Below are positions 18,820 through 20,717 of a stretch of 64,000 nt of DNA, one piece after another (the stretch's first letter is position 1; each line of letters begins with the position of its first letter). The position numbers were made by a program, and so were the translations under genes. The DNA is from Methanolobus sp. (GTDB lineage Archaea > Halobacteriota > Methanosarcinia > Methanosarcinales > Methanosarcinaceae), in the NCBI RefSeq assembly GCF_016278385.1, contig NZ_JADQBY010000008.1:1-64000 (forward strand), written 5' to 3'. The notes under the pieces were generated by a model. That model did not search any database and was not told the DNA's origin. It worked only from the letters and a program-made list of their open reading frames with translations.

Positions 18820-18888
18820 GGCTAATACTTTATGGTTTTTATTGTTTATAAGCACTTATTAAGAATATAGTGACATTAAGACGTCACA

Positions 18889-18896
18889 TTTATATG
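18889..18896 (+). promoter_or_regulatory. TATA box of the unassigned ncRNA
   Basis: TTTATATG at 18889-18896 lies about 24 nt upstream of the first base-paired part of the RNA candidate that follows. Spacing is right for an archaeal promoter starting near 18913. Confidence 0.5.
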
Positions 18897-18912
18897 TGTG
18901 CCACATAGTATT

Positions 18913-19115
18913 GGGTATGCGCATTGTTAGGTCCTTGCATGAGAGCATGGCAGAGCCTATCTGTGATTGTACAGACAACCTCAATGCGATACACTGGATA
19001 GTGCAATAAAGCCTGTCACGAGGGAAACTGGGATGGACAGCGGAAAATCCATAGGGTGATATCCCGGAGTTAGTGCGTCAGACGACAGCATTATCCTACT
19101 GATTATTCCTTTTTT
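18913..19115 (+). ncRNA. Structured non-coding RNA of unknown family
   Basis: About 200 nt with a TATA box before it and T6 (19110-19115) at its end, and no credible ORF. Two domains can be drawn. Domain 1 is closed by CGCATTG (18920-18926) with CAATGCG (18982-18988) and holds a TAGG/CCTA arm (18928-18931 / 18956-18959) and a TCTGT/ACAGA hairpin (18960-18964 / 18971-18975). Domain 2 is closed by a 9-bp stem GGATAGTGC (18996-19004) with GCATTATCC (19088-19096) including one G-U pair, and contains GGGAT/ATCCC (19030-19034 / 19061-19065). It is more GC-rich than its surroundings. It does not show the SRP or RNase P conserved cores that I know, and it is not a tRNA. It could also be a long leader of the gene at 19163. 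Confidence 0.6.
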
Positions 19116-19865: not shown

Positions 19866-20333
19866 ATGCAACGGAAACGATTATACTCGAAACGATCATT
19901 GAAAGCACCTTTGCTCGTTTACCAGAAAAGGTTGGAAATGGTTGAGAAATTGCTGGATGAATTGCAGGAGTTTATCAGGCAGGATTCAATCATTGTTGTT
20001 GAAGGTAAAAGGGATGTTGCCGCACTAAATAATTTGGGTTTGAACGGGGATTTTCGTCTTGCAACTCACCATTCATTAATTAATTTCTGCGAAGAATTAT
20101 CAAGGACAGGTAGCGATATTATTATTCTTACTGACTGGGATCGGCGGGGAAACATGCTGGCTTCAAAGCTTGTAGAAAACCTGCAGTCTCTGGGGATAAC
20201 GCCTGAAACAAGAATAAGGGACCTTATTATTTCTCTCGTACAAAAAGAGATAAAGGATGTTGAAAGCCTTCCTGGCTATGTCGGCAAACTAAAGGAAATA
20301 ACTAAAGCTACTGATGCAAATGACCCTTTTTAG
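19866..20333 (+). CDS. Toprim-domain protein (UPF0292-like)
   Basis: 155-aa archaeal small Toprim protein. The Toprim acid motifs are IIVVEGKRDVAALNNLGL (Glu at about residue 46) and IILTDWDRRGN (DxD at about 90-92). These folds occur in DnaG primase, topoisomerases and RNase M5-like nucleases, and the function of this short archaeal family is not settled. ATG 19866 gives a basic N-terminus; another ATG is at 19938. A TATA-like stretch about 25 nt before 19866 would give a leaderless mRNA and supports the longer form. Confidence 0.8.
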   Translation: MQRKRLYSKRSLKAPLLVYQKRLEMVEKLLDELQEFIRQDSIIVVEGKRDVAALNNLGLNGDFRLATHHSLINFCEELSRTGSDIIILTDWDRRGNMLASKLVENLQSLGITPETRIRDLIISLVQKEIKDVESLPGYVGKLKEITKATDANDPF

Positions 20334-20348
20334 AATCTGTCCTTTTCT

Positions 20349-20717
20349 TTAATGGTGTTGGGGTTCAAAACTGCGCTCAAATTCAGGGTACAACTCTGAC
20401 TTATCCATGAGTTCCTCATAGACTTCATGCCTTGGGCTTACAATTACTACGTGAGCCGGAGGGTGTATTTTCCTCAGTTTACTAATTGCTGCGCCTGCAT
20501 TGTTGTCAAGTTCCACCAACGCCGCTGAGTTGCATTTAGCTTTGAGTGGCACTCCAGCAACACTAACCAGAAGGTTGTCTGCATACACGGGCTCAATACG
20601 TTTTGGTTTTGATGCAAACCTCATCCGGCCGTAGTGCTCAAGATCATGTAATGCTACATTCACTTTATCAGCATTATCGCCCCTGATCACGGCAAACGAT
20701 TTAACTCCAATCCCCAT
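20349..20717 (-). CDS. Conserved methanogen protein, probably DUF356
   Basis: 122-aa soluble protein beginning MGIGVKSFAVIRGDNADKV. Length, the ALHDLEHYGRMRF segment and the PPAHVVIVSPRHEVYEEL strand look like DUF356, a family restricted to methanogens whose function is unknown. The assignment rests on memory of the family and needs a profile search. It converges on the Toprim gene with a 15-bp gap. The 171 bp upstream (20718-20888) hold a short direct repeat (TCTAATAAACTTTT, twice) and no gene. Confidence 0.6.
   Translation of the reverse strand: MGIGVKSFAVIRGDNADKVNVALHDLEHYGRMRFASKPKRIEPVYADNLLVSVAGVPLKAKCNSAALVELDNNAGAAISKLRKIHPPAHVVIVSPRHEVYEELMDKSELYPEFERSFEPQHH

Follow-up and report, generated by a model that had tools for sequence, protein, structure and literature searches.

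The anatomy of archaeal box H/ACA guide RNAs, as found below, has been set out previously, with published rules of a GA stem of ~10 bp and a distance of 14–16 nt from the ANA/ACA box to the GA stem (PMC4652768). One of these RNAs, Pab40, is the same RNA as HgcG, Rfam family RF00064 (PMC4652768). In Haloferax, the hairpins HP1 and HP2 are homologs of stems II and III of Pf7, stem I being absent; HP1 targets the equivalent of U2586 and HP2 the equivalents of U1915 and U1917 (PMC2584109). Here we describe an RNA encoded within a 64,000-nt stretch of Methanolobus sp. DNA (the window; coordinates are window positions and the RNA is on the + strand). We conclude that it is almost certainly a tandem box H/ACA guide RNA, encoded by a stand-alone gene, and the ortholog of HgcG/Pab40 hairpins II and III.

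Conserved structure and box H/ACA anatomy

The RNA is encoded by an independent non-coding gene, whose conserved two-hairpin core spans 18917–19095 (+). This extent is based on blastn conservation of query positions 38–216, a covariance model match at 18914–19099 and covariation. A first-pass annotation had noted a region of ~200 nt free of open reading frames (ORFs), and indeed no listed ORF lies within it. Using blastn, the RNA was found as a single copy in 51 of 60 relatives, with copies in four families of the order. The covariance model, R1, which was built from 50 sequences, matches 166 of the 295 sampled genomes of the phylum.

The structure was tested on 50 aligned sequences with 44 pairs and 500 shuffles. 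Paired cells made up 94.2% of the total, 23 of the 44 pairs were changed on both sides, and none of the shuffles reached any of the measures. When the partners were slid as a control, pairing fell to 31–42%. The folding energy of the single sequence is unremarkable (z −0.83; 43 of 200 shuffles fold equally well), and the evidence for structure is thus comparative. The first-pass annotation had proposed two long-range stems, 18920–18926/18982–18988 and 18996–19004/19088–19096, and suggested a check for covariation in relatives. Both stems are present in the sequence, and the check strongly supports the structure. The second, however, occurs mostly in Methanosarcinaceae, and the second stem of the conserved core is instead formed by 19011–19019/19073–19083.

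Hairpin 1 (18920–18988) consists of the lower stem 18920–18926/18982–18988, the GA stem 18934–18942/18965–18974 and the apical C stem 18943–18961. Hairpin 2 (19011–19083) is built from the lower stem 19011–19019/19073–19083, the GA stem 19028–19037/19058–19067 and the apical C stem 19038–19054. In addition, a closing helix of 18997–19004 with 19088–19095, extending to 18996/19096, encloses hairpin 2 together with its ACA box. Its pairs are present and some are changed on both sides; outside Methanosarcinaceae the helix is gapped or largely absent.

Both hairpins have the same layout: a lower stem, an internal loop forming the pocket, a stem of ~9–10 layers, a short apical stem and an ANA/ACA box on the 3′ side. 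At the end of each upper stem, tandem G.A/A.G pairs face a bulge of 3 nt, always with U in the last position, forming a kink-turn. In the first kink-turn, the bulged strand NNU-GA (18962–18966) pairs with G18941 and A18942; the U and the A.G pair are found in 50/50 sequences and the G.A pair in 49/50. In the second, the bulged strand (19055–19059), again NNU-GA, pairs with G19036 and A19037, and the U, the G.A and the A.G are each found in 50/50. The box of hairpin 1 (18991–18993), ACA in the window, is A-N-A in all 50 sequences, with C (45), U (4) or A (1) in the middle, and each base of the ACA box of hairpin 2 (19085–19087) is invariant (50/50). The box and the GA stem are 15–16 nt apart in hairpin 1. 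For hairpin 2 the spacing, which includes two bulged nucleotides, amounts to 17 nt, slightly outside the published 14–16 nt; Methanoperedens lacks the bulged nucleotides and has 14 nt. The stem–pocket–stem fold with its 3′ box, the kink-turn, the GA stem and its spacing, and bipartite complementarity to ribosomal RNA (rRNA) on either side of U-N are all found. The kink-turns are predicted L7Ae sites in both hairpins, and Cbf5 is encoded in the genome.

Orthology to HgcG and complementarity to 23S rRNA

The first-pass annotation had recognized no known RNA family here, and in a comparison with Rfam the locus gave no match at the gathering cut-off or even at E ≤ 10. RF00064 (HgcG) had no match anywhere in genome G000, and RF00060 (HgcE) gave no match. 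The link to HgcG was provided by intermediate loci. In genome G198, R1 matches contig C3:305186–305340 and RF00064 matches C3:305185–305451 with 98.4 bits, over its cut-off; the R1 match corresponds to the 3′ part of the HgcG locus, i.e., hairpins II and III. The R1 locus L250 is likewise matched by RF00064 over the cut-off (82.1 bits), and L247 below it (35.8 bits). The RF00064 cut-off is reached by the intermediates L264/L272 and L250 only, and not by the window copy. Based on these shared loci, the window RNA is orthologous to the last two HgcG hairpins, and the idea of an undescribed RNA of unknown family was therefore abandoned. We attribute its escape from Rfam to the missing hairpin I and to sequence divergence. 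Nor is there room for hairpin I: window hairpin 1 corresponds to hairpin II, and its first stem starts 31 nt after the TATA box.

As none of the 52 contigs of the window genome yielded rRNA, targets were searched in the rRNA of relatives (14 genomes), and the guides were compared with 300 shuffled guides. The 5′ guide of hairpin 1, UUAGGUC (18927–18933), and its 3′ guide, ACAACCU (18975–18981), are together complementary to the A-loop of 23S rRNA, AGGUUGU[UC]GCCUA. In hairpin 2, the 5′ guide GAGGGAAA (19020–19027) and the 3′ guide AGUUA (19068–19072) are complementary to helix 69 of 23S rRNA, (G)UAAC[UA]UGACCCUC. We take these two sites to contain E. coli U2555 (or U2554) and U1915, respectively. 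The A-loop was the best site for hairpin 1 and helix 69 the best for hairpin 2, each in 13 of the 14 genomes. For hairpin 1 the score was matched by 0–18 of the 300 shuffled guides, and for hairpin 2 by 0–2 in Methanoperedens and family f2. The E. coli numbering relies on the known A-loop and helix 69 sequences and on published H. marismortui equivalences (PMC2584109).

A second site, GGGUU[UA]GACC at U2586 in the peptidyl transferase centre (PTC), also fits hairpin 1 in part and ranks second best. In wider families the pockets were read by hand off the model alignment, which makes for a weak test. There, the U2586 site holds rank two to four in families with the A-loop at the top, and rank one or two in most of those that have lost A-loop pairing. 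Several of the latter look haloarchaeal, and their preference for U2586 fits the published target of Haloferax HP1. For hairpin 2, helix 69 ranks first or second in about half of the wider families and lower in others (e.g., f16, f27 and f18). At locus L030 (genome G030) hairpin 1 has an aberrant guide (AAAGUUC/AUAACC) with weaker pairing to the A-loop; it is possibly a decaying guide.

Several observations weigh against the identification as an H/ACA guide with these targets. The failure of Rfam to recognize the window RNA, even with the limit relaxed to E ≤ 10, is one, and the enclosure of the second ACA box by a helix in Methanosarcinaceae is unusual. At the junction of the pocket, one nucleotide of the guide has to be left unpaired in each hairpin. 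In Methanolobus the 5′ guide of hairpin 2 has two mismatches adjoining the target, and its score was matched by about 120–160 of the 300 shuffles, i.e., it is no better than chance. As the score there resembles that of shuffled guides, the helix 69 assignment in Methanolobus is based on rank, conservation and position, on relatives with better matches and on the target published for the orthologous hairpin.

The lack of an Rfam match and the extra closing helix could also be read as signs of a new class of structured RNA, for example a scaffold or a regulator, that merely resembles H/ACA RNA. However, its locus coincides with that of RF00064 HgcG in G198 and L250, its kink-turns and ANA/ACA boxes are near-invariant and its guides match rRNA at a site modified in relatives, and we give this explanation very little credence. 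Taken together, the data indicate that the H/ACA RNA very probably directs which uridines of the ribosome active centre become pseudouridine.

Promoter and neighboring genes

The promoter (18882–18895, +) consists of a CGnnA element and, 2 nt downstream of it, the TATA box TTTATAT (18889–18895). The TATA box, which the first-pass annotation had pointed out, is conserved across the loci: a TATA-like match was seen in 45 of 50, at a median of 31 nt upstream of the first stem. Together with the covariation, this bears out the proposed two-domain structured RNA gene with a promoter of its own. The motif CGnnAnnTWWAT occurs in 33 of 35 Methanosarcinaceae-row loci, compared with 0.010 expected per 60 nt, and CGNNANNTTTATAT matches the window once only, at the RNA promoter. 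A run of T6 had been taken as the end of the RNA; it is present at 19110–19115 but is not conserved. No promoter was recognized in a scan of the sigma-70 style, and both terminator-like matches of that scan fall upstream of the RNA, at 18870–18887.

A few features around the promoter were observed in addition. An inverted repeat, GTGACATTAAGACGTCAC, occupies 18870–18887 between the amidohydrolase gene and the RNA promoter. Motifs similar to CGnnA-TATA were seen near rRNA operons of some relatives (loci L084, L088 and L089), and the CGnnA element could be a hallmark of stable-RNA promoters in Methanosarcinaceae. Four loci from one family of the order (L048, L050, L051 and L052) have no TATA box close upstream of the RNA. 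There, the RNA is preceded by a conserved stretch, TTCTTCGAGG..CTGATGTGA..TGATCATCGG, which is perhaps another element or RNA.

Downstream of the RNA and outside it lies the DUF167 gene (YggU, PF02594; 19163–19489, +; Pfam 3.4e-21). As most Methanosarcinaceae, and one further family of the order, have this gene directly after the RNA, the RNA could be its 5′ leader, as the first-pass annotation had also considered, or a riboswitch, folding in two ways to control DUF167 translation. However, in two families of the order, and at the Methanosarcinaceae loci L033 and L047, no DUF167 gene was seen next to the RNA. Since the RNA persists in these lineages, a leader role is unsupported. In addition, the next downstream gene is convergent in several unlinked loci, and the conserved columns are explained by the H/ACA anatomy and the rRNA complementarity. 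We therefore regard the leader explanation as highly improbable. Signal recognition particle RNA and RNase P RNA would likewise be conserved and single-copy like housekeeping genes, but each was located at another site of this genome with a strong score and both were rejected, with virtually no chance that the RNA is either.

In the window, DUF167 is followed by genes for a small Toprim-domain protein (19866–20333) and a DUF356 protein (20349–20717), and in many Methanosarcinaceae these two and the DUF167 gene remain grouped close to the RNA. Genome G060 carries two full-length copies of the RNA (contigs C24 and C9), compared with one in almost all other genomes.

Proposed function and comparison with known guide RNAs

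From what is known of the family, L7Ae would bind the kink-turn of each hairpin and Cbf5 its ANA/ACA box, together with Nop10 and Gar1. By the same analogy, the pocket would pair with both sides of a 23S uridine, leaving the U unpaired and placing it in Cbf5, which would convert it to pseudouridine. Hairpin 2 would direct modification of U1915 (E. coli numbering) in helix 69, at a subunit bridge, and hairpin 1 that of U2555 or U2554 in the A-loop, possibly also that of U2586 in the PTC. Whereas the gene, its conservation, structure, kink-turns, boxes, homology and guide complementarity and the presence of Cbf5 come from the present analysis, we infer assembly of the ribonucleoprotein and catalysis from the family. 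For M. acetivorans, cryo-electron microscopy gave methylations only, among them Um2563 and Gm2564 in the A-loop region (PMC12605026).

The hairpin 1 pocket could conceivably be a dual guide, serving both A-loop U2555 and PTC U2586 through overlapping guides. Haloarchaeal-like lineages would then have lost the A-loop half and kept the guiding of U2586, and in Methanosarcinaceae the second ACA box would work inside a closed helix. We consider this scenario possible but rather unlikely.

A text search of an incomplete literature collection found no paper describing the RNA in Methanosarcina, and it is apparently a previously unrecognized guide in Methanosarcinales with an ordinary mechanism. Its identification adds a missed pseudouridylation guide for a large group of methanogens and anaerobic methanotrophic (ANME) archaea, and an R1-type model could extend RF00064 across the phylum, which would be useful for annotation. 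Specific pseudouridines are predicted in the ribosomal active centre of the genetically tractable Methanosarcina. The RNA also offers a case of a guide that lost a hairpin and apparently changed its target between lineages.

Compared with the described systems, the window RNA is similar to HgcG/Pab40/Pf7 of Pyrococcus (RF00064), which has three hairpins; II and III of these align with window hairpins 1 and 2. Hairpin III of Pab40 has a published target at 23S L2016, the equivalent of U1915, as proposed for window hairpin 2 (PMC4652768; PMC2584109). The two RNAs differ in that the window RNA lacks hairpin I and falls below Rfam detection, and in that the listed target of hairpin II in Pab40 is L1932, whereas window hairpin 1 is assigned to the A-loop. 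By its published description, Afu-4 of Archaeoglobus fulgidus (motifs Af4.1–4.3) is also a tandem H/ACA RNA, and its last motif guides L1970 and is close to Pa40.3 (PMC4652768). Unlike the window RNA, it has three motifs, the first of which is directed against 16S rRNA. The Haloferax HP1–HP2 RNA, known as sR-h45, has two hairpins and lacks hairpin I, as does the window RNA. The pockets of the haloarchaeal-like families are without the A-loop complementarity that is present in window hairpin 1.
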